From Candidatus Bathyarchaeota archaeon JdFR-07 (lineage in GTDB: Archaea > Thermoproteota > Bathyarchaeia > Bathyarchaeales > Bathycorpusculaceae), in NCBI GenBank assembly GCA_002010975.1, contig MTLU01000006.1, positions 1-39,632 of the forward strand: a stretch of 39,632 nucleotides of DNA. Direction: 5' to 3'. The position numbers and the translations under genes were made by a program. Positions 3,119 to 29,571 of the stretch are shown piece after piece. The stretch's first letter is position 1. The number at the start of each line of letters is the position of its first letter. The notes below the pieces were generated by a model. It was not told where the DNA came from. It did not search any database and saw only the letters and a program-made list of their open reading frames with translations.

Positions 3119-6100
3119 TTGAAAAAAGCATGGATTACTCTCGTTATCCTTTTAACACTTTCAACACCAAAGCACGTTGTTGTGTTTGGAGCAGATAGTC
3201 AGTTTACTATGTCTATGAAACAAACTAATCCTGCAACTTTATGGGTATATCTTCCAGACGGTCAACGTGTTGGTTCTAATCCTGATATATGGTTGCATAA
3301 AGGATGGGTTATGTATCAATCTGGAAATACTTGGACTTTTACTCTCAAGATAAAACAACAAAGTCACTGTCTATCATCCTTTGACACACACTTAATTATT
3401 GCACTCAACGATGAAGCTTACAACAATCTTGTCGAGCTGATTGTAGAAGGAGTTTCTATTCCTAGTCTCGCTTTCAAGTTCGGTCGACCACACCTTTATG
3501 GCATAAAATGGTGGCCTAATGATGTTTATCCAACATGGTTTAATGATACACTAGTCAATTTAGGAACAATACATCCAAAGCAAGTTAAAGAAATAGTTGT
3601 TAAAGTAACATTTTCCGACCCAACAAATGCTAGAATACACTTTGATGCCTACGGAAAAACTGTGCCTTTCGATCCTCCATGCCCAGGCTTTATAACAAGA
3701 AACCCCAATGGAAGAGACTCAACAGTTTTATGGAAGTACGTTCCCCAACCTCCCGAAGCAGAGTTCACATGGGTTCCGCCATATCCCTGCGTTAACCAGA
3801 CTGTAACCTTTAATGCTTCTGAGTCGTCTCCTATTGGTGGAGAGATAACATCTTATCGCTGGGATTTCGGCGACGGAAACATAACCATCACCAATCAAAC
3901 TATAATTACCCATATCTACTACGATATAGGAACATATGCTGTGACCCTAAATGTTACCGATAGTGAAGGATTGTGGGATACTGAAACAAAGAATATCACT
4001 GTAGTCACCACTCCAACAGTTTCTATTCAACCACCAGAAACTATATGGACATATGAAACTCATTCCATAGGAGAAAACTTAACCATAGATATATATGTAA
4101 ATAATGTTACCAACCTTTGGGCTTGGAAACTCGGTTTAACTTTTAACGCCAGTGTGTTGCAATGTCTAGAAGTTTCTGAAGGGTCTTTTCTCAAATCCGG
4201 AGGAAACACCACATGGACTCTTGGAGAAATAAATAACACTATTGGAATGATAAGTCCCTTCGAATGTTCACTCCTTGATGGAGGAACACCTGTTTCTGGA
4301 AGCGGAGTTCTAGCCTCTATACTCTTTACAACTATAAATTATGGAAACTCAAGTTTACATCCCATAAATGTCACTCTCTACGACCCTGACATAAACGTTA
4401 TCCCAGTCAACGTTTTTGATGGATATTTCGCGTTTATTCCCCCTCCCCCCTTCGGTCCTACTGCTTTCTTTAAATATAACCCCTTGGCCCCCTATGCCAA
4501 TCAACCGATAACCTTTAACGCATCGGAATCAGAACCCGGATGGACCGGGTGGGAACCTGCTCCCATAGTAAGCTATGAGTGGAATTTCGGCGACGGAAAC
4601 ATAACCCTCACCAATGAGCCTAGTATAGTACATACGTATTCAGCGATGGGCGTTTACAATGTGACACTTATTGTAACAGATAGTGAAGGGAGAATGGATT
4701 CCTATCTCAGAACATTAATTGTTGATGCCATCGCACCAAACGCTTACTTTGTGTGGGATCCATTTTATCCTATGTATGGTGAAACTGTAACCTTTAATGC
4801 TTCATTATCAACTCCCGACGGTGGAGAATTGATTTCCTATGAGTGGAATTTCGGCGACGGAAATACTGACAGTGGAGTTGTTGTAACTCATATATTCCAA
4901 GCTGGTGGAACATACAACGTTACATTAACAGTTATTGACAGTGAAGGTAAAAGCGACACCACTTGGAGACTGATCTCTGTATTAACTGAAATATATACAA
5001 CTCCGCCAGCATACGCTGCTTCATATCTTGGAGAAGAATTTAGCATAGAAATTAAAGTTGAAAATGTTACAAATCTCTATTCATTTGAATTTAAGCTTGG
5101 ATACAACACCACACTTCTTGACGTGACAGATATCGAGGAAGGCTTATTCCTTAGTAGTTTTGGAAACACAATAATCGAAAAGATGGAAATAAACGATACT
5201 GTTGGATACGTCTGGGTTTCCATAAGCCTTGAACCATCATCACCAGCAGCAAATGGAAGCGGAGTTTTAGCCTTCATAAGCTTTAACGTTACCTTCGCAA
5301 CTAAATGGCCAGAAAGTGTAAGTTGCGTACTTGACCTATATGATACTATACTAACAGATGTAAATGGATACGATATTTTGCATGAATCCCAAGACGGTCT
5401 TTACATATTCATTCCTCCAATAGTTCCTCCAACAGCATCGTTTAGTTACAGTCCAGAATATCCACTAGTAAATGAACCCATAACCTTTAATGCTTCTGAG
5501 TCGTCTCCTAATGGTGGAGAGATAACATCTTATCGCTGGGATTTCGGCGACGGAAACATAACAGAAGTTAACGTTTCAATAATTACCCATTCATATAGCC
5601 TTTCAGACTTCTATAATGTTACCTTAACCGTTTTCGACAATCAAGGACTAAATGATACAACATGGGCAATTGTAAAAGTCTATCTGAACCCCGAGTCTCC
5701 ATCTCCAGATTTCAACTGGATTCCCATAAGCCCAGTAAAAGGGGAAACTGTAACCTTTAATGCTTCAACTTCTCAACCAGGCTTTGATGGAACAAACACT
5801 TGCCCAATTGCATGGTACTACTGGGATTTCGGCGACGGAGCTACCCCGATAAACACCACTGACCTTGTAATAACACATACGTTCCTATCAGCTGGAACAT
5901 ATGATGTAAATCTAACGGTTTATGCACCACCAAGCTCTGAGACTCATCCAAGTTACTACCCATATGGAATGACAATTAAGCAGATCACTGTAACGGTTCA
6001 AGCATATACACTTACAATTACAACAACTAGTGGTGGCACAACCGACCCACCCCCTGGAAACTATACGTACGCCGAAGGCACCGTAGTTTCCGTTACAGCA

Positions 6101-6622
6101 ATTCCGGAAACAAATTACCAATTTGACTATTGGGAGTTAGATGGAGTTTTCTATAGTAATCAGTCAACCGTTGAAGTGGTCATGGTTAGCGACCACGAGC
6201 TTAAGGCATTCTTCGAATATCTGCCTCCACTTTCAGTTTCAATAAGTCCGACTTCAATAACAATCTACTTAGGCGACTCCGTTACATTTACATCCTCCGC
6301 CTCTGGCGGTGTTCCTCCTTACAGCTTTCAATGGTACCTTAACAATAACCCTGTTTCAAGTGCTACTTCAGATACTTGGACTTTTACACCTACATCAAGC
6401 GGCATATACTACGTATACCTAATAGTCATAGATGACAATGGCAACACCGCCCAGTCAGATACTGCAAGGGTCATGGTTTCAACTCCAACGATTCCAGTAG
6501 GGGGATACACAGTACCCATTTCACTACCTAAAAAGATTTCGCCAATACCCATGACAGCCTACATATTCTTGCTAGTCTTATGTGGAATTCTTTTAAGTCT
6601 GAGAAAACATAAAAAAGAATAA
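3119..6622 (+). CDS. Large PKD/cohesin mosaic surface protein, membrane anchored
   Basis: This 1167-residue exported protein uses a TTG start; a strong purine-rich site (GGAGGGAGGGAGAGG) ends about ten bases upstream and the start gives a clean signal peptide (MKKAWITLVILLTL). Rough order: an N-terminal beta domain (25-205), PKD (212-297), cohesin-like (300-440), PKD (447-537), PKD (540-622), cohesin-like (625-768), PKD (775-857), PKD (860-960), an InlB/Listeria-type beta repeat (962-1037, TSGGTTDPPPGNYTYAEG), an Ig-like domain (1040-1120, VSISPTSITIYLGDSVTFT), then VGGYTVPI, a membrane helix and RKHKKE. PKD units carry WDFGDG or WNFGDG. It should be a long extracellular stalk presenting two cohesins. 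Two PKD units are almost identical in DNA, pointing to recent duplication or gene conversion. Domain borders are approximate. Confidence 0.75.
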   Translation: MKKAWITLVILLTLSTPKHVVVFGADSQFTMSMKQTNPATLWVYLPDGQRVGSNPDIWLHKGWVMYQSGNTWTFTLKIKQQSHCLSSFDTHLIIALNDEAYNNLVELIVEGVSIPSLAFKFGRPHLYGIKWWPNDVYPTWFNDTLVNLGTIHPKQVKEIVVKVTFSDPTNARIHFDAYGKTVPFDPPCPGFITRNPNGRDSTVLWKYVPQPPEAEFTWVPPYPCVNQTVTFNASESSPIGGEITSYRWDFGDGNITITNQTIITHIYYDIGTYAVTLNVTDSEGLWDTETKNITVVTTPTVSIQPPETIWTYETHSIGENLTIDIYVNNVTNLWAWKLGLTFNASVLQCLEVSEGSFLKSGGNTTWTLGEINNTIGMISPFECSLLDGGTPVSGSGVLASILFTTINYGNSSLHPINVTLYDPDINVIPVNVFDGYFAFIPPPPFGPTAFFKYNPLAPYANQPITFNASESEPGWTGWEPAPIVSYEWNFGDGNITLTNEPSIVHTYSAMGVYNVTLIVTDSEGRMDSYLRTLIVDAIAPNAYFVWDPFYPMYGETVTFNASLSTPDGGELISYEWNFGDGNTDSGVVVTHIFQAGGTYNVTLTVIDSEGKSDTTWRLISVLTEIYTTPPAYAASYLGEEFSIEIKVENVTNLYSFEFKLGYNTTLLDVTDIEEGLFLSSFGNTIIEKMEINDTVGYVWVSISLEPSSPAANGSGVLAFISFNVTFATKWPESVSCVLDLYDTILTDVNGYDILHESQDGLYIFIPPIVPPTASFSYSPEYPLVNEPITFNASESSPNGGEITSYRWDFGDGNITEVNVSIITHSYSLSDFYNVTLTVFDNQGLNDTTWAIVKVYLNPESPSPDFNWIPISPVKGETVTFNASTSQPGFDGTNTCPIAWYYWDFGDGATPINTTDLVITHTFLSAGTYDVNLTVYAPPSSETHPSYYPYGMTIKQITVTVQAYTLTITTTSGGTTDPPPGNYTYAEGTVVSVTAIPETNYQFDYWELDGVFYSNQSTVEVVMVSDHELKAFFEYLPPLSVSISPTSITIYLGDSVTFTSSASGGVPPYSFQWYLNNNPVSSATSDTWTFTPTSSGIYYVYLIVIDDNGNTAQSDTARVMVSTPTIPVGGYTVPISLPKKISPIPMTAYIFLLVLCGILLSLRKHKKE
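3804..3885 (+). repeat. PKD-coding repeat, copy 1
   Basis: 82 bases in the first PKD domain match 5481-5562 at 81 of 82 positions, including third codon positions. The shared stretch encodes FNASESSP, then GGEITSYRWDFGDGNI. Confidence 0.9.
5481..5562 (+). repeat. PKD-coding repeat, copy 2
   Basis: Partner of 3804-3885, with a single T/A difference (codon for Ile versus Asn). Shorter matches around TTTCGGCGACGGA recur in the other PKD units at about 4585, 4848 and 5826. Confidence 0.9.
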
Positions 6623-17117: not shown

Positions 17118-20100
17118 ATGGCAGTAGAAGAGATAATCCATAAAGTGGTTGACGAAATAAGCTTCGGGCTTTTTTCGCCTCAAGAAATCCGTAAACTTTC
17201 AGTTGTTGAAATTCAAACACCCGACACATATGATGAAGACGGTGCTCCAATAACCTCAGGACTAATGGACGGTAGACTTGGAACACTAGAACCGAGACAA
17301 AGATGTAAAACCTGCGGCAACACTGCCCTTCGCTGCCCAGGACATTTTGGTCACATTGAACTTGCAGTTCCAATAATACATATAGAATTCACGAAAATAA
17401 TATACGGTCTTTTAAGAGCCACCTGTAAAAACTGTGGCCGTATACTTCTCTCTGACGAAGCTATCAAAAGAATTCGAAGCAAAATAAATAGGGCTCGTCA
17501 ACTTTTCGGTATGGTTCCCGATGAACTTTATAAATCAGTATTTCAAGATGCCAGAAATAAGCAGTGTCCTCATTGCGGGACTATACAATACAAAATAGTT
17601 TTTGAGAAACCCACAAAGTTTAGTGAACAAATACCTGAAAGTGGCTCGGAACCTCTAACGCCAAGCATGGTTAGAGAAAGACTTGAACGAATACCCGACG
17701 AGGACCTTGAACTATTTGGTTTCAATCCTAAATTTGCACGCCCTGAATGGATGGTTCTACAAGTTTTACCTGTTCCTCCCGTTTATGTTCGTCCCTCAAT
17801 CACATTAGAATCTGGCATCCGTTCAGAAGACGATTTAACCCACAAGTTGGTAGATATAATACGCATCAATCAAAGGCTTAAGGAAAATATGGATGCCGGG
17901 GCACCCACACTTATCATCCAAGATCTTTCTGAACTTCTTCAATATCACGTAACAACATATTTTAACAACGAGGCATCAGGAATACCTCCTGCCAGACATC
18001 GATCAGGAAGAGCCCTAAAAACACTTTCACAAAGACTAAAGGGAAAAGAAGGAAGGTTCAGAAGTAATCTTTCAGGAAAAAGAGTCGATTTTTCAGCCAG
18101 AACCGTGATTTCTCCAGATCCTAACCTAGACATTAACGAGGTAGGTGTACCCCTCGAAGTTGCTATGCGTCTTTCCGTTCCAGAAAAAGTTACAGAATGG
18201 AATCTGGAAGAGATGAAAAAACTCGTTAGAAATGGACCCGAAGATTATCCAGGCGCACTTTACATTATTCGACCAGACGGAAAGCGTATAAGACTCGAAT
18301 TTGTTGTGGATAGAGAAAAAATTGCAGAATCTTTAGAACCAGGCTTCATAGTAGAGAGACATCTAAAAAACGGTGACATAGCAATATTCAACCGTCAACC
18401 TTCTCTCCATCGCATGTCTATTATGGCACATTATGTACGTGTTTTACCCTACAAAACCTTCCGTTTACACCTTTGCGTATGTCCCCCTTACAACGCAGAC
18501 TTCGACGGAGACGAAATGAACCTGCATGTACCTCAAAGCGAAGAAGCACGAACCGAAGCCCTGTTACTAATGCAGGTTCAAGATCAAATATTGTCTCCTA
18601 GATTTGGTGGACCAATAATCGGGGCCATTCGAGACTTTATTACTGCAGCTTACCTTTTCACACGCAAAACAAACTATCTTACAAAAGAAGAAGTTAATCG
18701 ACTACTAATCGCATCTCAATATGAAGGTCCCCTACCAGAACCCAAAATAAAAGAACCCCAACCCCTCTGGACCGGAAAACAAATCTTCAGTCTATTTCTT
18801 CCCAAAGATATGAATTATGTTTTGAAATCAAACATCTGCCAAGGTTGTGCCAAATGTCAAGAAGAAAAATGCCCTTATGACGCTTATGTAATTGTAAAAA
18901 ATGGCGAATTAATAAGCGGTGTTATTGATAGGCGCTCCATAGGCGCCGAACAATCTGAAAGCCTTTTACACCGAATAATAAAAGAATATGGAACAAAAGC
19001 AGCAAGAGATTTTCTCAACAAAATAACAAGATTACTAAAACTTTTCTTAACCATGCGAGGCTTCACATACTCCTACAACGAACTTGTGCTATCTCAAACC
19101 GCTAAGAACAAGATAAAGAAAACTATGGAAAGAGTTCAGAAAAAAGTAGAAGAACTAATAGAAAGCTACCGGAAAGGCACCCTTCAAAGACTTCCAGGTC
19201 AAACTCTCGAAGAATCCTTTGAAATCTATGTAATGAATGAACTTGCTAAAGCTAGAGACGAAGCAGGAAAAATAGCAGACAAAGACTTTGCCTTAGAAAA
19301 TTCCGGCATAATTATGACAAGGTCAGGAGCCAGAGGCTCCAGCCTAAATATTGGGCAAATGAGCGCTTGTGTAGGACAACAATCAGTTCGAGGAAAACGA
19401 ATATTACGAGGATATCTAGACCGCGCTCTACCCCACTTTAAATCTGGAGACCCCAGTCCAAAGGCGCGAGGATTTGTAAACTCTTCTTATGAGAAAGGTC
19501 TTGATGCCATAGAATTTTTCTTCCACGCAATGGGTGGAAGAGAAGGCCTTGTAGACACAGCTGTGAGAACCCAGCAAAGCGGTTACATGCAAAGAAGACT
19601 AATTAACGCCTTAGAACACATACGCCTAGAATACGATGGAACCGTGAGAAACTCTGCAGGAGACATAATACAATTCAGGTATGGCGAAGACGGTGTTGAC
19701 CCAGCAAAAAGCGACCACGGTAAAGCTGTCAACGTAAAAAGACTCATTGAACAGATAAAAATAGTTGCAGGAAAAGGTAGACCTGCATCAAAGGATTACA
19801 TTAAAGAACAACTAAAAAAAGTTGAAAAACAAATTACACCCTTAATTTTAAAAGAGCTCAAACTCGGTTTGACCAAAGCAAAACTTACCAAAGACGGTGT
19901 GAACAAAGCAATCCAGTTGACAATCGAACATTATAAGCGTGCATTAATGGAACCAGGAGAAGCTGTAGGAATAGTGGCGGCTCAATCGATAGGCGAACCA
20001 GGCACACAAATGACTCTTAGAACATTTCACTATGCAGGAGTCAAAGAACAAAACGTCACCCTAGGATTACCCAGATTGATAGAAATTGTTGATGCAAGAC

Positions 20101-20939
20101 GTATGCCTTCTACACCAATAATGACAATTTACCTAACAGAGAAACATAGAAAAAGCAGAGGATCTGCCGTCAAAATTGCCCGTAACATAGTCTATACAAC
20201 ACTAGAAAATCTTGCAGAAAAAATCTATGAAGACCCTATACAAGGCGAAATAGTTGTGGGGCTTAGCCGAGAAATGATGGAAGACAGAGGAATAACTATT
20301 GAAGAGCTAGAAGAGAAGATAGAAATTCAAAACGCCACTGTAAAAATAAAACGTAACAAGATACATATAAAACCTGAAGATGCTGGCTCGCTTAAAAAAT
20401 TGCTTAATAAAGTCTCATCGTTGTATATAAGCGGAGTTCCAGGAATAAAACGTGTTCTGGTCACAGAAGAACAAGGTGAATGGGTTATAAGAACAGACGG
20501 TTCAAATCTTCCCAAAGTTTTAGAAGTTCACGGTGTCGATACTTCGAGAACAACCACAAACAACGTTCATGAAATAGCTAAAACCTTAGGGATTGAAGCG
20601 GCTAGAAATGCACTAATTCGTGAGGCTAAAGGGGTTCTGGAAGAACAAGGTTTAGATGTGGACGTTCGCCATGTAATGCTCGTCGCGGACATGATGACAT
20701 CAACAGGCGAGGTTCAACAAATAGGACGGCATGGTATAAGCGGTAAAAAATCAAGTGTTCTAGCTAGGGCAGCCTTCGAGATAACGGTTCCTAACATTGT
20801 TGAAGCTGCTGTAAAAGGAGAAAGTGACCCCCTAGAAGGTGTAACCGAAAACGTTATAGTGGGCCAGTCTATCCCCATAGGCACAGGGTTAGTTGAATTA
20901 TTTATGTCGACGTTGGAGTCAAAAGGTGAGCGTGAATGA
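17118..20939 (+). CDS. rpoA: DNA-directed RNA polymerase subunit A, fused A'+A''
   Basis: A 1273-residue chain equal to A' plus A'' without a break; most archaea split this gene. N-terminal zinc sites: CKTCGNTALRCPGHFGH and CKNCGR with CPHCG. The clamp region carries LSQRLKGKEGRFRSNLSGKRVDFSARTVISPDPNL. The catalytic Mg loop is YNADFDGDEMNLHVPQ (about residue 460). The bridge helix region has SGYMQRRLINALEH, and the A'' portion has GEAVGIVAAQSIGEPGTQMTLRTFHYAGV. A four-Cys cluster, C574-x2-C577-x2-C580-x4-C585, lies in the middle. There is no eukaryote-like heptad tail. It overlaps rpl30e by four bases. An undivided A is known from Thaumarchaeota and some related lineages, which agrees with the proposed origin. 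Confidence 0.97.
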   Translation: MAVEEIIHKVVDEISFGLFSPQEIRKLSVVEIQTPDTYDEDGAPITSGLMDGRLGTLEPRQRCKTCGNTALRCPGHFGHIELAVPIIHIEFTKIIYGLLRATCKNCGRILLSDEAIKRIRSKINRARQLFGMVPDELYKSVFQDARNKQCPHCGTIQYKIVFEKPTKFSEQIPESGSEPLTPSMVRERLERIPDEDLELFGFNPKFARPEWMVLQVLPVPPVYVRPSITLESGIRSEDDLTHKLVDIIRINQRLKENMDAGAPTLIIQDLSELLQYHVTTYFNNEASGIPPARHRSGRALKTLSQRLKGKEGRFRSNLSGKRVDFSARTVISPDPNLDINEVGVPLEVAMRLSVPEKVTEWNLEEMKKLVRNGPEDYPGALYIIRPDGKRIRLEFVVDREKIAESLEPGFIVERHLKNGDIAIFNRQPSLHRMSIMAHYVRVLPYKTFRLHLCVCPPYNADFDGDEMNLHVPQSEEARTEALLLMQVQDQILSPRFGGPIIGAIRDFITAAYLFTRKTNYLTKEEVNRLLIASQYEGPLPEPKIKEPQPLWTGKQIFSLFLPKDMNYVLKSNICQGCAKCQEEKCPYDAYVIVKNGELISGVIDRRSIGAEQSESLLHRIIKEYGTKAARDFLNKITRLLKLFLTMRGFTYSYNELVLSQTAKNKIKKTMERVQKKVEELIESYRKGTLQRLPGQTLEESFEIYVMNELAKARDEAGKIADKDFALENSGIIMTRSGARGSSLNIGQMSACVGQQSVRGKRILRGYLDRALPHFKSGDPSPKARGFVNSSYEKGLDAIEFFFHAMGGREGLVDTAVRTQQSGYMQRRLINALEHIRLEYDGTVRNSAGDIIQFRYGEDGVDPAKSDHGKAVNVKRLIEQIKIVAGKGRPASKDYIKEQLKKVEKQITPLILKELKLGLTKAKLTKDGVNKAIQLTIEHYKRALMEPGEAVGIVAAQSIGEPGTQMTLRTFHYAGVKEQNVTLGLPRLIEIVDARRMPSTPIMTIYLTEKHRKSRGSAVKIARNIVYTTLENLAEKIYEDPIQGEIVVGLSREMMEDRGITIEELEEKIEIQNATVKIKRNKIHIKPEDAGSLKKLLNKVSSLYISGVPGIKRVLVTEEQGEWVIRTDGSNLPKVLEVHGVDTSRTTTNNVHEIAKTLGIEAARNALIREAKGVLEEQGLDVDVRHVMLVADMMTSTGEVQQIGRHGISGKKSSVLARAAFEITVPNIVEAAVKGESDPLEGVTENVIVGQSIPIGTGLVELFMSTLESKGERE

Positions 20940-23193: not shown

Positions 23194-23748
23194 TTACTTC
23201 GATAACAACATATCTATAAAAGTCTTTTGATCTATTTCGGCGTGTGTTCTCCAATCCAAATAAAGCTGGTCGTTCTCGTCTTGCGTCAAATATCCATATC
23301 TAATATAACGATCGATATTTAAGCTAACTTTCCATCCTGGCAATTTATCGCGAAGCAGCTCTTCAACTTCTTTTCGTGGAACTTTTCCTTTTTTAGATAT
23401 TATGTAAGCAATTGTTACTGCCAATCCAGCTAAATCGTCTATTCTCCACCCTATCATCTTAGCCTCTTTGGGTGTTAGCTCACCTCTTAAAGTTATGTAG
23501 AATCTTGCCTTATCCAACTGTTCGATGGTTGGTCTTTCTACAGTTTTTTCTTCTTCAAAAATTGTCTTAACTTGCAAATCTAAAGCTTTTAAATAATGAT
23601 CTAGAATCTTCAAAACTTTTGGATAGTCTGTTCCTAGGACTTTTCGAAGCTCCCAACCTTTTACACCTGGTTTTTTGTGTCTTCTATAGAAAAGCATGTG
23701 TACCGCTCTTTTCAATTTACTTGCATAATAGCCCTTTCTTCTTTTCAT
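23194..23748 (-). CDS. ScpB/kite-like winged-helix subunit of the SMC-type operon
   Basis: A 184-residue protein whose ATG directly follows the stop of the kleisin-like gene (TAGATG). Two winged-helix-like halves are visible. The first (about 10-90) has KRAVHMLFYRRHKKPGVKGWELRKVLG and a hydrophobic helix-turn-helix. The second (about 105-175) has DDLAGLAVTIAYIISKKGKVPRKEVEELL and RYIRYGYLTQDENDQLYL, close in pattern to the second domain of ScpB (LETLAIIAYKQP.TR.EIE, then a short wing). Tandem winged-helix kite proteins (ScpB, MukE, Nse1/Nse3, JetB) bind the kleisin in SMC complexes. The assignment rests on pattern and operon position; sequence identity to known kites looks low. Confidence 0.55.
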   Translation of the reverse strand: MKRRKGYYASKLKRAVHMLFYRRHKKPGVKGWELRKVLGTDYPKVLKILDHYLKALDLQVKTIFEEEKTVERPTIEQLDKARFYITLRGELTPKEAKMIGWRIDDLAGLAVTIAYIISKKGKVPRKEVEELLRDKLPGWKVSLNIDRYIRYGYLTQDENDQLYLDWRTHAEIDQKTFIDMLLSK

Positions 23749-24573
23749 CTACCGTTCACCCTTTTTCCATTTTCTCCAGTCTTCAGCCGATACTGCTATG
23801 GGGATGGAAACCAGCTGTTTTTTGCTGATTTTAAGCACGGGGTTCTCGTTTGGTTTAACGAAAATTTCCTCTTCTAAAGGCTGAATTTCCAGTGAAGCAT
23901 AACCGTAAGTTACCAGAAAACTTGTTAGAAAAGCTCTCTGAACAGTTTCCTCATAAATATCTGCACCTACAAAATCCCAATACCGAATTTTTCCTTCCCT
24001 CCCGTCTTTTTTGACTCTATCCTTAAGTTCCTTCCAAAAACTTTCTAATTCCTTCGAAAAGGCTTTTTCCCGAAAAATTCTCTGCTTAATAAGCTCCTCT
24101 CTTGTTACAAGACCTGTTTTGATTTCTGTTAGTTGAACTTCCCGCCACCTTTCATTTAAAGGTAAAAGGCTTTCCCAATATCTTAATGCTTCTGCAATGC
24201 TGTGAAGTGAAAGCTGCTCCATTTCTACTATAGGATGCCAAACCTTAAGAAAGATTTCTACGATTTCATCTTTTTCTATATAGACAAGTTTTTCTGCTAG
24301 AAGAAAAGGGTCAGTATAGAGAGATGTAGAGCGATGTTTGACCCATTCGCTTTGAAGTTTTATGATCGAGGCTAAATGATGAACAGTTTCAGCATCTAGG
24401 CATAAATCTTCTGGAATTTTCCATTCTGGGAAAAATTCTTTAATAGTTCTTACCGCGCCATCCACATCTATTAGAAAGGGGTCAAGAGAGCGTTCTTCGA
24501 CAGATTTACACATCTCAATTATGCGCTGGAGTTTCTCCCTGCCAATTTTTAACCTACCTCGCTTTGACATCAT
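23749..24573 (-). CDS. Kleisin-like (ScpA/Nse4-type) subunit of the SMC-type operon
   Basis: A 274-residue protein overlapping the SMC-like gene by four bases. It is mostly helical. The segment VHHLASIIKLQSEWVKHRS resembles the ScpA helix that binds the SMC neck (AATLL.IKS..LL). The C-terminus, about 212-250 (TVQRAFLTSFLVTYGYASLEIQ then LEEEIFVKPNE), matches the C-terminal winged helix of ScpA kleisins (FLALLEL...G.V.L.Q...F.EI.I). A charged linker sits between (FWKELKDRVKKDGREGKIRYW). Kleisins bridge the two heads of an SMC dimer. No other role fits both position and sequence as well, but the match is by eye only. Confidence 0.55.
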   Translation of the reverse strand: MMSKRGRLKIGREKLQRIIEMCKSVEERSLDPFLIDVDGAVRTIKEFFPEWKIPEDLCLDAETVHHLASIIKLQSEWVKHRSTSLYTDPFLLAEKLVYIEKDEIVEIFLKVWHPIVEMEQLSLHSIAEALRYWESLLPLNERWREVQLTEIKTGLVTREELIKQRIFREKAFSKELESFWKELKDRVKKDGREGKIRYWDFVGADIYEETVQRAFLTSFLVTYGYASLEIQPLEEEIFVKPNENPVLKISKKQLVSIPIAVSAEDWRKWKKGER

Positions 24574-26516
24574 TTGACTACCTCTCTAACAATGGATTTT
24601 CCTTCTACGTTTTGAACAGTAATTATGTTAGCTTCCTCTCCCGCAAAAGTTACTTGACTTGGCGTGATAATAATATATTGAGCATTAGCATCTTTTATCA
24701 TGGAAACGAATATTTTTGCAATTAACTCGCGATTTTTGGGATCCATATGTATGTCGTATTCGTCTACCGCCCTAAAAGGCGAACGAACATGTTTTTGTAA
24801 GGCCAATAGAAAGCCCATTGTTGCAGTTGTTCTCTCCCCACCGCTCTGTGTATAGGCGTTTAAAGAAACAGGTTTTCCACCTTTGAATCCTACGAGAATT
24901 TCGAGTCCTGCAGCTTCTATGTCATGCCCGTTGACAAGTTTAACCTCTCCAACGGCTTGGGCTTGCGCTAAAATTTTTTTGTATTCTAAATTGACACGGT
25001 CAAGTAGGCTTTGGATCACACTCCGCCAGTTCTGCATCCTTGTTGTGACTTCCTCTAAAGTTTTTTCCCTATTTTCTGCAACTTGCCGAGCTTTCTCTTT
25101 GAGTTCTAGATAAAGTTTTGAATAAGATTCGTACATACGCTCTATGTCTTCTGAAACATCTGCAAGAGCCGATAAGTGTCCATCTGTAACTCTTATTTCA
25201 TCAAGAATTTCACTTATACTCTTGACGACAGCAATTCTTGATCCGGTTTGCTCTGCTTTCTTCACCACTTCATATAAAAGATTTTTGGCATTCTTTAATT
25301 CGCTTTCAAGCTTTTCTAAATTGCTTCTCACGTTTTCTTCTTGATATTGAAGCAACGCCAGTTTAATGCGACTTTCTACAACCTGATTGCTGATTTCTTC
25401 AATTTGCTCTTCTAACTCTTTAGTCTTCGATTTGTTTTCGTTTATTTTAAGATCCGTTTCTGAAAGATCTTGTTTATAGTTTCGAATTAGTTCTTTCAAA
25501 TATTGACTGTCTAGAAGCTTAAACTTTTTTATGAGCTTTTCTTTTTGCCTGGTTTGTGGGATTGCAGGATTTCCCAAAAGTAACGTCTCTTTTAGTAACT
25601 GTTGGTACAAAGCGATGGTAGCTTCTTTTGAAGCTTTTTCTCTCTCCAAGCTTAAGCGTTCATCGAAGATATTTTTCCAGGACTCTTTTATTTTTTCCAG
25701 CCTATTTTTCTGAATCTGCATTTGTTCCTTTATTATACTTATTTCTGTTTCTATTCGTTCTAGAGTAGCCCTCTGCTTTTTCTTTTCTACCTCCAATTCC
25801 TTAACGTTTTCTTCTTTTCTTGCAACTTCCGCCCACGCTAGTTCTCTTTCTAAAAATCTTCTTTTGGTTTGAAGCTGCTTTTTCTCTTGATATCTTTCAT
25901 ATTGTTCTCTCCAATAGTTAAGTGTCTGTTCGGCGGATTCCAAAAGTTTACTTACAGATTCTTCTTGGCTCATTATTCGTGTCAGCTTTTTCTGAGCTTG
26001 CAACACATTACCTCGATATGATTCAAGGCCAACCGCTGCTTCCACAATCTTCAACTTCTCTTGTGCAGAAAGCACTGTAAACTGTTCAACCATATTTTGA
26101 TGCATAATTATGAGCATGTTGTTTGGGTCCATGCCTAACCTACTAAGCAATCGTTCAACCTCACTTTTTGTAGCAGCTCTGTTTTCCAGTTCAAACCAGT
26201 ATTTACCGTCGCGGCGTAAAACACGAGTCAGGAAGATCTGATCTTTTTTAATTTTAGGAACAGGTCTTTTTCCACTTTTTTTTGTATTGTCGAGAATTAA
26301 TGTGATTCTGGCTTGATCTTTTCCCCAACGTATAAGATCACTTAGTTTTTTAGAACGTTCTGTGTAGGATTGTCCAAGAGCTACAGAAATTGCCAATAGC
26401 AAGGAAGATTTTCCAGAACCATTGGGTCCACAGATGACATTGACACCAGGTTCAAAGGGTACTCTAGCATACTCATAGCTCATGAAGTTTTCAAGGATTA
26501 CCTCTTGAATTAGCAT
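24570..26516 (-). CDS. Short Smc5/6-like SMC ATPase
   Basis: A 648-residue ABC-type ATPase. Walker A is GPNGSGKS at residues 30-37. The N-terminal head continues with LSDLIRWGKDQARITLIL and MDPNNMLIIMHQNMVEQFTVLSAQEKLKIVEAA, a layout like the Smc5 segment containing Q(F/N)LPQD..AEF..L.P.ELL. Coiled coils run at about 175-320 and 350-530. The C-terminal head has the signature QSGGERTTATMGFLLALQ (557 on) and Walker B FRAVDEYDIHMDP (D585, E586), closer to Smc5/Smc6 than to canonical SMC. There is no CxxC zinc hook and no room for a normal hinge; the turn near GNPAIPQ (about 325) may be a minimal hinge. First gene of an operon with kleisin- and kite-like genes; TATTATTTAC near 26548 may be its TATA box. 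Confidence 0.85.
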   Translation of the reverse strand: MLIQEVILENFMSYEYARVPFEPGVNVICGPNGSGKSSLLLAISVALGQSYTERSKKLSDLIRWGKDQARITLILDNTKKSGKRPVPKIKKDQIFLTRVLRRDGKYWFELENRAATKSEVERLLSRLGMDPNNMLIIMHQNMVEQFTVLSAQEKLKIVEAAVGLESYRGNVLQAQKKLTRIMSQEESVSKLLESAEQTLNYWREQYERYQEKKQLQTKRRFLERELAWAEVARKEENVKELEVEKKKQRATLERIETEISIIKEQMQIQKNRLEKIKESWKNIFDERLSLEREKASKEATIALYQQLLKETLLLGNPAIPQTRQKEKLIKKFKLLDSQYLKELIRNYKQDLSETDLKINENKSKTKELEEQIEEISNQVVESRIKLALLQYQEENVRSNLEKLESELKNAKNLLYEVVKKAEQTGSRIAVVKSISEILDEIRVTDGHLSALADVSEDIERMYESYSKLYLELKEKARQVAENREKTLEEVTTRMQNWRSVIQSLLDRVNLEYKKILAQAQAVGEVKLVNGHDIEAAGLEILVGFKGGKPVSLNAYTQSGGERTTATMGFLLALQKHVRSPFRAVDEYDIHMDPKNRELIAKIFVSMIKDANAQYIIITPSQVTFAGEEANIITVQNVEGKSIVREVVK

Positions 26517-27103
26517 TAACGCCCTTTGCCCTCTCTACGCAGTAAATAATAGAGGTAAAAACTCTCTTATTAAAACAACTAGGCAAAATTTATGTATAAA
26601 AGGTGTTTTGTAAAGTTCTACACTACGGATCGATATAACATGAAATCTACAAAAAAGAACGTATTTATAGAAACAATGGACCTACGCTGTAAACATGGTT
26701 ACAAAGTTCGTTACGTCCCGTATGAAGTAATAGATGACTATAGCACAATTATAACGTCATTTTCGAAAACAAACACATCACAACAAATGCAACTAAACAA
26801 TTGACCGTACCTAAATGAAATATAGATTTAAAAATGTGGAGAATCTACAAAGAGTATATACTTTTCCATGAACTAAGAGAGATATACTACGGGGAAACGG
26901 AATAAATAGCGATGAGGCCCGCAAAAAGGGCAATACAATACACGCTTTCCTTAAGGAACAATATTCCTCTATTTAACAGAATGATTACAGAAATTCAAGC
27001 GATGGATGAAAAACTGCTGAGAAGAAGAAAAGAAATCAAAATTAGAATATCTTAAACTTCTTAAGCATATTCTAACAATATTTCAGGATTGGTGAACGAA
27101 CAT
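26517..27103. other. Sparse region between the SMC operon and the next gene
   Basis: About 590 AT-rich bases. It includes the SMC promoter on the minus strand and, on the plus strand, an open frame of 70 codons at 26592-26804 with no ribosome site and little sign of a real protein, plus a small frame at 26912-27055 listed separately. No RNA gene is recognised. Confidence 0.5.
26912..27055 (+). CDS. Possible small basic protein (47 residues)
   Basis: Starts ATG 26912 (MRPAKRAIQYTLSLRNN) and ends TAA 27055. The product is helical and strongly basic at the end (KLLRRRKEIKIRIS). No convincing ribosome site was found. It lies 48 bases before the next gene on the same strand. Listed as a candidate only. 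Confidence 0.25.
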   Translation: MRPAKRAIQYTLSLRNNIPLFNRMITEIQAMDEKLLRRRKEIKIRIS

Positions 27104-27790
27104 ATGGTGATTGCAGGCAAAGTTTTCAGGCTTTTGGAAAAACTTTCCATAGCTGAAATTGCATCACGGCTCGAGGGCTACCGAGTTGAAGAGCCCTATG
27201 AAGAAGGAGATTACAAGTTTACCCTTGTAAGCGAAATTGTAGGGCTTCTGCCGAAAGAGAACATGCTTAGAGGTATCTATTCTCACGATTATGTTATTCA
27301 TGTATTTCATAGAGGTAAAACCCTGCCTACACCGCGCACTGTTGAGGCTTTATTCAGTTTTTCAAAGCAAGAAAACGCCACGTTTTTAACTGTGGTGGAA
27401 AAGAAAAGTTTAGCTAATTTTATAGCCAACAAGCTTAGCGAAATCTTATTTGAAAAGCTTGGTGGAATATTGGAAGCTAGGATTTCACCTGAAACCTTGC
27501 GAGAGTTTCATCTTAAAAACCCTGAAGATACAAAAATAACCTTTTTTGACAATGTTGATATTCCTAATGTGAACAAACTTTCGCTTTATGGTCCTGACCT
27601 AATTAACACTTCGCTTTTTGAAGATTATTGTAAACGTGGAGACTTATGGTATGTTGTCGCTAGGTCTAAAGAATATGGCTATATTGTAGGTATAACAAGA
27701 GACTCATCCGTAACAGTATTCAATTTAACGGATAAAGAACAATACTTGGAATTTGTTTCAAAAGAGATTTACAAGCTAATAACTGTTTGA
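27104..27790 (+). CDS. Unrecognised 228-residue archaeal protein
   Basis: ATG 27104 is chosen because GGTGA sits eight bases before it; TTG 27089 or GTG 27092 would add a few residues. The protein is soluble alpha/beta. The N-terminal half has YKFTLVSEIVGLLPKENMLRGIYSHDYVIHVFHRG; the C-terminal half has TKITFFDNVDIPNVNKLSLYGPDLI and WYVVARSKEYGYIVGITRDSSVTVFN. The regular strand pattern and conserved-looking turns indicate a real domain, possibly two related halves. No motif for catalysis or metal binding was found. It stands alone, 176 bases before the next gene. Confidence 0.6.
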   Translation: MVIAGKVFRLLEKLSIAEIASRLEGYRVEEPYEEGDYKFTLVSEIVGLLPKENMLRGIYSHDYVIHVFHRGKTLPTPRTVEALFSFSKQENATFLTVVEKKSLANFIANKLSEILFEKLGGILEARISPETLREFHLKNPEDTKITFFDNVDIPNVNKLSLYGPDLINTSLFEDYCKRGDLWYVVARSKEYGYIVGITRDSSVTVFNLTDKEQYLEFVSKEIYKLITV

Positions 27791-27965: not shown

Positions 27966-28493
27966 ATGGCAGAAAAAGAAACGGTTGAAAAAGTGAAGGA
28001 TAGACAAGGAATGCTTGCAAAAATCCAAAACGTTTTGGGCTCTGGATATGCAACTAGAGAAGATCTTAGAGAACTGGACAGAAAGCTTCGAGACTTGTAT
28101 TACGCTGATTTCAAAAAACTACGCCGCAGATGGGAAGAAATTTATCTAGTCGCTTTAAATGCTGGAAAAGCGACAGATGACTTCAAAAAAGTAATACAGA
28201 TAATCGATAGAGCCGCAGAGAAAGTCAATCGTGCAGATTATGGATATGCAGGATTAATGGATCGTAAAGGGTCGATAAAAGAGACTGAATTGGCTCGTAT
28301 TTTCAACTATGACAAAGCTTTAAGTGGTGAGATTGAAGCGATAATAAATGCAGTTAATGATTTATATACAGACATCCAAGCTGAAAATTGGACAGAAACA
28401 GCAACCAAAACTAAGAATGTTAAATCCTTAATACTTAGTTTTGAGTCTAAATGGGATGAGAGAGAAAAACAGTTTAGACCTTTGGAGGTGTAA
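27966..28493 (+). CDS. Helical protein coupled to an SPFH gene
   Basis: The protein has 175 residues from ATG 27966, with AGAGG about eight bases upstream; a TTG at 27948 is less likely. It is almost all helix and highly charged (REDLRELDRKLRDLYYADFKKLRRRWEEIY) with a second helical part (LARIFNYDKALSGEIEAIINAVNDLYTDIQ). There is no membrane segment. The ribosome site of the next gene (GGAGGTG) lies in its last codons, so the two are translated together. It is likely a partner of the SPFH protein. It is not a recognisable PspA homologue. Confidence 0.6.
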   Translation: MAEKETVEKVKDRQGMLAKIQNVLGSGYATREDLRELDRKLRDLYYADFKKLRRRWEEIYLVALNAGKATDDFKKVIQIIDRAAEKVNRADYGYAGLMDRKGSIKETELARIFNYDKALSGEIEAIINAVNDLYTDIQAENWTETATKTKNVKSLILSFESKWDEREKQFRPLEV

Positions 28494-28497
28494 AAGG

Positions 28498-29571
28498 ATG
28501 CCTATTATTGAAAGAGTTGCATGGGACACTGCAGGTCCAGAAGACATAGCTTATAGATTCCCAAATCTCAAACTGAAATATGGAAGCCAGGTCATAGTTA
28601 AAGAAAACCAGTGGGCTGTATTCTTCCGCGATGGTAAAGCTTATGACGTTTTTGGACCTGGAAGACATACAATTACAAGTAATAACATTCCCCTTTTAAC
28701 TGGTGTCTTGAAAGCTTTGGGTATTATAGGAGACATTTTTGATTGTGAAGTCATTTTCATTAGCAACAGTCAATTTAGAGCAAATTTTGGTGGTAAAGCC
28801 TATTCGGCTCCGAGCGGAGATATAAAATATCAAGCTGAGTTAGGTTTCTATGGTTACACACTTTATAAGGTTGATGACCCCAAACTTTTTGTTACAGAAT
28901 TTTTTGGCAACAGAAATGCAAGCACTTCAAAAGACGTTGAAGATTACATTAGAGGATTTATAAACGAGCGAATTATTGACGAGTTTGCTCACTGGGACAT
29001 TTTCACTCTTGTGAAAAATGTTGATGAAACCACAGATAAAGTGGCATTAAAAATAAGCGATGAAGCCGCAAGAGTAGGCTTGAAAATAATAGATTGTGTA
29101 TTCGAGGGTATAAATGTTCCTGAAGAGGCTAGGAGATTCGTTTCTGGAATGGGTGCTCAGGCCATGATGATGCAGTATATGAAAGAAACAGCTGCCGAGC
29201 TTAAAGGTTCTGAGGGCGGTGGTGCTGCAGCAGCAGGTTTAGGTGCGGGTATGGGATTAACTATGCCTTATATAATGGCTCAACAAATGCAACAGGCTCA
29301 AGCTCAACAGCTTGTTATATGTTCAAAGTGCGGTGCCAAGAATCCTGTGGGGGCTAAATATTGTGGTAACTGTGGCATAGGTCTCGCCCCTGAAGCGAAG
29401 GTTGTCTGCCAAAAATGTGGAGCAGAAAATCCTGCGGGCATGAAATTCTGTGGAAATTGTGGGACACCGTTAGCACAACAGACTAAGACAGAAGTGGTCT
29501 GTCCAAAATGTAATGCGAAAAATCCGCCTAGAACAAAGTTTTGCGGAAACTGTGGAGAAAAGTTACCCTAA
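28498..29571 (+). CDS. SPFH-domain protein with three C-terminal zinc ribbons
   Basis: The protein has 357 residues from ATG 28498, just after GGAGGTG. Residues about 8-235 form an SPFH/band 7 domain of the YdjI (virion core protein) type: LKYGSQVIVKENQWAVFFRDGKAYDVFGPGRHTITSNNIPLL, and ISDEAARVGLKIIDCVFEGINVPEEARR. A Gly/Ala and Met/Gln-rich linker follows (about 236-275). Three CxxC...CxxC ribbons close the chain, starting VICSKCGAKNPVGAKYCGNCG, VVCQKCGAEN and VVCPKCNAKN. There is no N-terminal membrane helix. SPFH proteins form oligomers at membranes or in stress assemblies. It is coupled to the upstream helical protein. Confidence 0.85.
   Translation: MPIIERVAWDTAGPEDIAYRFPNLKLKYGSQVIVKENQWAVFFRDGKAYDVFGPGRHTITSNNIPLLTGVLKALGIIGDIFDCEVIFISNSQFRANFGGKAYSAPSGDIKYQAELGFYGYTLYKVDDPKLFVTEFFGNRNASTSKDVEDYIRGFINERIIDEFAHWDIFTLVKNVDETTDKVALKISDEAARVGLKIIDCVFEGINVPEEARRFVSGMGAQAMMMQYMKETAAELKGSEGGGAAAAGLGAGMGLTMPYIMAQQMQQAQAQQLVICSKCGAKNPVGAKYCGNCGIGLAPEAKVVCQKCGAENPAGMKFCGNCGTPLAQQTKTEVVCPKCNAKNPPRTKFCGNCGEKLP

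Follow-up and report, generated by a model that had tools for sequence, protein, structure and literature searches.

We find that a compact operon in the genome of Candidatus Bathyarchaeota archaeon JdFR-07 probably encodes an archaeal Smc5/6-type SMC-kleisin-KITE complex, a reading to which sequence comparison and predicted folds lead us to give a probability of roughly 80%. The three-gene operon occupies positions 23194-26516, on the minus strand, of a 39,632-nucleotide stretch of contig MTLU01000006.1 that was analysed as a whole (the window), and it comprises the following elements:

24570-26516, minus strand: SMC ATPase gene, 648 aa (P0001), recognized from its open reading frame and motifs
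24570-24573, minus strand: 4-base overlap between the stop of the SMC gene and the start of the kleisin gene
23749-24573, minus strand: predicted kleisin gene, 274 aa (P0002), Nse4-like by profile and fold
23194-23748, minus strand: predicted KITE gene, 184 aa (P0003), Nse3/Nse1/MAGE-like by fold and profile

The kleisin and KITE genes abut with a 0-base gap. This layout, as well as the ATPase motifs GPNGSGKS, QSGGERTTAT and VDEYDIHMDP, is confirmed in the sequence exactly as the initial annotation of this DNA had given it. The order SMC-kleisin-KITE is kept in 30 of 30 close loci (the window's own counted), one of which has a broken SMC frame, and, in the class-wide set, at every locus whose contig is complete. 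Of 17 named archaeal loci, 13 also show it; the other four are three contig-end fragments and one long Lokiarchaeota form. Across this survey of relatives, the three genes stay together in all complete compact loci. Because they co-occur in a fixed order across close, class-wide and named archaeal loci, the arrangement is not due to chance, and computation shows that the three genes are inherited together. Complete loci hold a single SMC gene per operon and so do not encode a two-SMC heterodimer set.

A divergent gene beside the operon (27089-27790, plus strand) encodes a 233-aa protein with no Pfam match that lies near the operon in 17 of 47 related loci and is a candidate partner. Elsewhere in the window, RNA polymerase subunit A (17118-20939, plus strand) is encoded in one piece, as a 1273-aa product containing all five Rpb1 domains, rather than by separate A' and A'' genes. 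A 1167-aa protein (3119-6622, plus strand), which by its sequence is a probable cell-surface protein, contains six PKD domains, two cohesin-type domains (of the unrelated cellulosome kind) and Ig-like domains. An SPFH/Band 7 protein (28441-29571, plus strand) has three zinc ribbons at its end, and a 181-aa protein with no Pfam match is encoded upstream of it.

The ATPase and its place among SMC proteins

The ATPase chain is divided as follows, in residues of P0001:

1-167: N-terminal head
~168-314: N-terminal coil, without proline or glycine
~315-345: short variable tip
to ~515: return coil, with a break near 424-455
to 648: C-terminal head

The arms are ~147 residues, or ~22 nm, in length. 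The absence of a zinc hook noted earlier is borne out, as no C-x-x-C occurs in P0001 or its 30 aligned relatives (31 aligned members). The claim that there is no full hinge also stands: Pfam SMC_hinge had no match in P0001 at E<=1 and none in two diverged compact members (L116 and L165), while the same library detects this domain in canonical SMC (6e-20) and in two Asgard relatives. Because Asgard relatives possess a hinge, its absence from the compact ATPase is, judging from sequence, probably a derived loss.

When a profile of 31 ATPase members was compared with the PDB, the ten best entries were all Smc6 or Smc5 (187-221 bits), followed by P. furiosus SMC (174 bits), Smc2 (156), Smc3 (130), Smc1 (116), Smc4 (105) and Rad50 (41). 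A control profile built from the canonical SMC of these archaea (1183 aa) gave the reverse, favoring Smc1-4 and placing Smc5 near the bottom (P. furiosus SMC 465, Smc4 277, Smc3 269, Smc2 221, Smc1 195, Smc5 57). To rule out that the coils drove this result, we scored half-heads without coils separately. Smc5 and Smc6 half-heads reached 56-93 bits (N-terminal) and 61-103 bits (C-terminal) with compact-head models, compared to 14-32 and 16-62 bits, respectively, with canonical-head models, and Asgard canonical SMC half-heads showed the opposite preference.

We also built a maximum-likelihood tree of heads, taking Smc5 and Smc6 sequences from PDB alignments and leaving out Smc1-4, which were compared with the ATPase by profile only. 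The compact ATPases, Smc5 and Smc6 were placed apart from canonical SMC, Rad50 and the archaea-specific SMC-related proteins (ASRPs) with SH-aLRT/UFBoot support of 98.7/98, and the split was supported at 94.1/97 when Asgard forms were added on the compact/Smc5/Smc6 side. Neither the trees nor the approximately unbiased (AU) tests resolve the order in which compact, Smc5, Smc6 and Asgard forms branch, including whether Smc5 and Smc6 form a clade.

These comparisons bear on whether the operon could be an ordinary SMC-ScpAB system that has been reduced, with a canonical SMC that lost its hinge and with ordinary ScpA and ScpB as partners. In a single-sequence search, the ATPase scored 105 bits with Smc5 and 101.5 bits with P. 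furiosus SMC, a near tie that would suit such an origin but that is settled because the profiles and the coil-free heads separate the two. The tree likewise parts the ATPase from canonical SMC, as does the AU test, which rejected their grouping by a narrow margin and with Smc1-4 outside the tree (p 0.037). Moreover, the JdFR-07 genome separately encodes a canonical SMC (1183 aa, with hinge) with its own ScpA just downstream. We therefore consider a reduced SMC-ScpAB unlikely.

An identity with the ASRPs (coalescin, Sph) would account for the similar length of the ATPase, its restriction to archaea and its 74-bit match to the NCBIfam ASRP model. That score is far under the cut-off of 300, though, the zinc hook is absent, and the AU test rejected a grouping of compact heads with ASRPs at p 4e-65. 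Related genomes carrying the compact operon also encode true ASRPs with zinc hooks (CPxC), as well as Rad50. The AU test and this co-occurrence refute the ASRP identity, to which we attach almost no probability.

In the AU test, a grouping of compact heads with Rad50 plus ASRP fell just short of rejection (p 0.056). RecN is hinge-less with short arms, and the compact ATPase resembles it in both respects, so one might picture a RecN/Rad50-like DNA-end tether that shares Smc5/6 heads and whose small neighbors are unrelated winged-helix DNA binders. This is very unlikely given that the ATPase profile scores Rad50 at 41 bits against 221 bits for Smc6, and that the partners resemble Nse4 and Nse3 in sequence and fold (see below).

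Alignments show that the archaeal chain combines Smc5-type traits (QSGGER and PFR-x-VDE) with traits of the human Smc6 type (E-x-A-W in the first coil, DEFDV-x-MD..NR and a similar neck). The initial annotation had likened the heads to Smc5 more than to canonical SMC. That preference is upheld by the profiles, coil-free heads, tree and AU test, but the likeness is not to Smc5 alone, as Smc6 features are shared too. Collectively, these computations show the ATPase to group with Smc5 and Smc6.

The kleisin and KITE partners

P0002 matches Pfam Nse4_C at an E value of 9.8e-4, under the curated cut-off. Class-wide, Nse4_C is matched by 30 of 33 kleisin members (best 5.3e-6), and every other family by at most one. 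Yeast Nse4 and human EID3 were the only significant PDB matches of the kleisin profile (E 2.4e-5, in the C-terminal domain); a narrow profile of close relatives only had no significant PDB match, whereas this broader one did. The predicted structure (mean pLDDT 76, pTM 0.40) consists of a confident three-helix N-terminal domain (residues 4-85), a weak linker and a C-terminal winged helix (~169-241). Foldseek ranked Nse4 first for this model (E 6e-3, prob 0.97), followed by the SMC-head-bound C-terminal winged helix of ScpA (TM 0.75, rmsd 2.8) and then Scc1-C. The computations show that the second gene bears the C-terminal winged helix of Nse4, and the 274-aa protein is a predicted kleisin nearer to Nse4 than to ScpA. 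A winged helix had been recognized here before and compared to that of ScpA; the domain is present, with Nse4 as its closer relative in both Nse4_C and PDB comparisons.

The KITE model (pLDDT 88.8, pTM 0.72) has two winged helices in tandem. Its best Foldseek matches were chains of Nse1-Nse3-Nse4 and MAGE-G1/NSE1 structures (E 5e-5 to 2.5e-4, TM up to 0.63), with MAGE-A4, a JetABC chain (8dk1_E, E 8.7e-4) and ScpB next. A KITE profile widened with Asgard members matched the Nse3/MAGE chain 7dg2_C (E 5.5e-6), with human NSE3 and MAGE-G1 below significance, and a narrow profile limited to close relatives gave no significant PDB match. P0003 alone had no match in Pfam; across 20 KITE members, MAGE was matched by 6 (best 5e-4) and SMC_Nse1 by one (4e-4). 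Matches of P0003 to Cmr5 and ThsB (NCBIfam/PADLOC, E 0.01-0.04) were taken as chance. At 184 aa, the protein is too short for a RING. The structure computed for the third gene product shows the tandem winged-helix fold of Nse1/Nse3, and predicted fold and sequence place the protein nearer to Nse3/Nse1 than to ScpB.

The earlier comparison of the third gene with ScpB pointed to the right fold, with Nse3/Nse1 as the closer relatives. Taken as a whole, the initial reading of an Smc5/6-like ATPase with a kleisin and a KITE, and lacking a full hinge, is upheld by profiles, predicted folds, trees and synteny. The ScpA winged helix and ScpB among the Foldseek matches are in keeping with a reduced SMC-ScpAB, but the kleisin profile matches Nse4 and not ScpA.

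Distribution, proposed function and origin

Within the class, 199 of 251 genomes (and 100 of the 120 that are near-complete) have the kleisin, nearly always in a single copy; in the phylum it occurs in 154 of 397. Three genomes (G189, G241 and G246) have two kleisin matches apiece, which may represent whole second operons or mixed-strain bins. Named records with the full operon come from Bathyarchaeota, Thermofilales, Methanomethylicota, Calditenuaceae, Methanodesulfokora, a Thaumarchaeota MAG and a Hadesarchaea MAG. The compact complex is a second SMC system, widely retained alongside canonical SMC-ScpA.

A role in defence, which the initial annotation had floated together with DNA repair, would leave the protein assignments unchanged and make the operon a Wadjet/Jet- or Lamassu-like system acting against plasmids or viruses. 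The JetABC chain among the KITE fold matches fits such a role, as do weak PADLOC similarities to LmuB, mad3 and PtuA and the restriction of viruses reported for eukaryotic Smc5/6 (PMC9458440). However, across 47 loci no nuclease gene is a recurrent neighbor of the operon, and the viral contigs searched contained no relatives. Unlike patchy defence islands, the operon behaves as a core locus: its kleisin is almost invariably single copy and present in most near-complete genomes of the class, and its KITE is highly conserved (74-88% identity among close relatives). The defence suggestion is unsupported by these data, and we regard it as improbable.

Among Asgard archaea, an SMC of 831-840 aa (truncated in one case) is encoded in four genomes of the Lokiarchaeota phylum; the gene after it encodes a kleisin that matches the compact-family profile at E ~1e-8 to 1e-9, with a KITE (E 1e-11 to 1e-14) in three of the four operons. 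Other Asgard genomes, including Lokiarchaeota itself, have a 1056-1155-aa SMC and small genes in matching positions. One kleisin-like gene of these long-SMC operons matches the compact-family profile, weakly, and the rest do not; the small genes are likely homologous to the kleisin and KITE. SMC_hinge was found in one tested SMC of each Asgard type. An AAA+ ATPase gene precedes the SMC gene in 6 of 8 tested Asgard operons (L230, L231 and L234-L237; E up to 7e-26), an arrangement not seen with the compact form, and its product could possibly be a loader or remover of the SMC complex.

By homology to Smc5/6 and SMC-ScpAB, we propose a model in which two copies of the ATPase, assumed to form a homodimer, would sandwich ATP between their heads. 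The N-terminal helices of the kleisin would grip the Smc6-like neck of one copy, and its C-terminal winged helix would sit on the partner copy's head, in the manner of Nse4 on Smc5, such that one ATPase protein would fill both the Smc5 and Smc6 parts. A KITE dimer would lie on the kleisin linker, and DNA would be gripped against the engaged heads and clamped above them. Because the arms are short and a hinge is undetected, such a complex more probably works as a short DNA clamp or tether driven by ATP than as a loop extruder taking long steps. Analogy with Smc5/6 suggests a probable role in DNA repair or under replication stress; more speculatively, it might tend DNA that is damaged, stalled or entangled, leaving chromosome folding to canonical SMC-ScpA. 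A small three-protein system with apparently one SMC and no hinge also asks what minimum is needed to clamp or move DNA.

The relation to an Smc5/6 ancestor proposed earlier fits these data, with the caveat that the tree leaves the branching order unsettled. We give even odds to a scenario in which the operon descends from a single-SMC Smc5/6 ancestor, eukaryotes duplicated the SMC (Smc5 and Smc6) and the KITE (Nse1 and Nse3), and the hinge-less form is a lineage-specific reduction. If this is true, an Nse4 kleisin and an Nse3/Nse1 KITE had joined an Smc5/6-type ATPase already in archaea, and the reduced form would be an SMC complex working without a dimerising hinge. As most class members and some Asgard archaea carry the operon, an archaeal beginning of Smc5/6 is probable. 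That the kleisin and KITE partners share the archaeal operon, including in Asgard archaea, suggests that the whole Smc5/6 core predates eukaryotes. The operon also tempers the published view that SMC complexes of archaea as a rule lack a KITE and that Crenarchaeota, from which smc, scpA and scpB were reported absent, have no SMC complexes (PMC7055376), as Thermofilales hold the SMC-kleisin-KITE operon.

Comparison with known systems

ASRPs (coalescin ClsN and Sph) share the size, archaeal origin and SMC superfamily membership of the compact ATPase, but have a zinc hook and distant heads; the paper describing them gives no consensus for the flanking genes and mentions no kleisin. Wadjet JetABCD is likewise an SMC operon with a kleisin and a KITE, from which the archaeal operon differs in its core distribution and in having no JetD-like nuclease gene in 47 loci. 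Bacterial Smc-ScpA-ScpB has the same homodimeric SMC plan, a kleisin with a C-terminal winged helix and a KITE, but it has a full hinge and long arms, and all three parts are more distant in sequence. Archaeal canonical SMC-ScpA differs in its 1183-aa SMC with hinge and adjoining ScpA, and is reported to work without a KITE (PMC7055376).

With the eukaryotic Smc5/6-Nse1-Nse3-Nse4 core, the operon shares Smc5/6-type heads, the Nse4 C-terminal kleisin domain and an Nse3/Nse1-like tandem winged-helix KITE. It differs in having one SMC gene and one KITE instead of two of each, an SMC of 648 aa instead of ~1100, no hinge found and no RING. Nse2 (the SUMO ligase) and Nse5/6 are absent among the recurrent neighbors of the operon in 47 loci. 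An archaeal "SMC5/6-related" SMC clade has been reported to group with Smc5 and Smc6 (PMC9389158, citing Yoshinaga and Inagaki 2021), and the ATPase of the operon probably belongs to it; in PMC9389158, the clade is described for the ATPase only, with no kleisin, KITE or operon. Within the literature in reach, which excluded bioRxiv and most subscription journals, we found no report of an Nse4-like kleisin, an Nse1/3-like KITE or a hinge-less form with this clade. As far as the accessible literature shows, an archaeal origin of Smc5/6 was previously known for the ATPase only.
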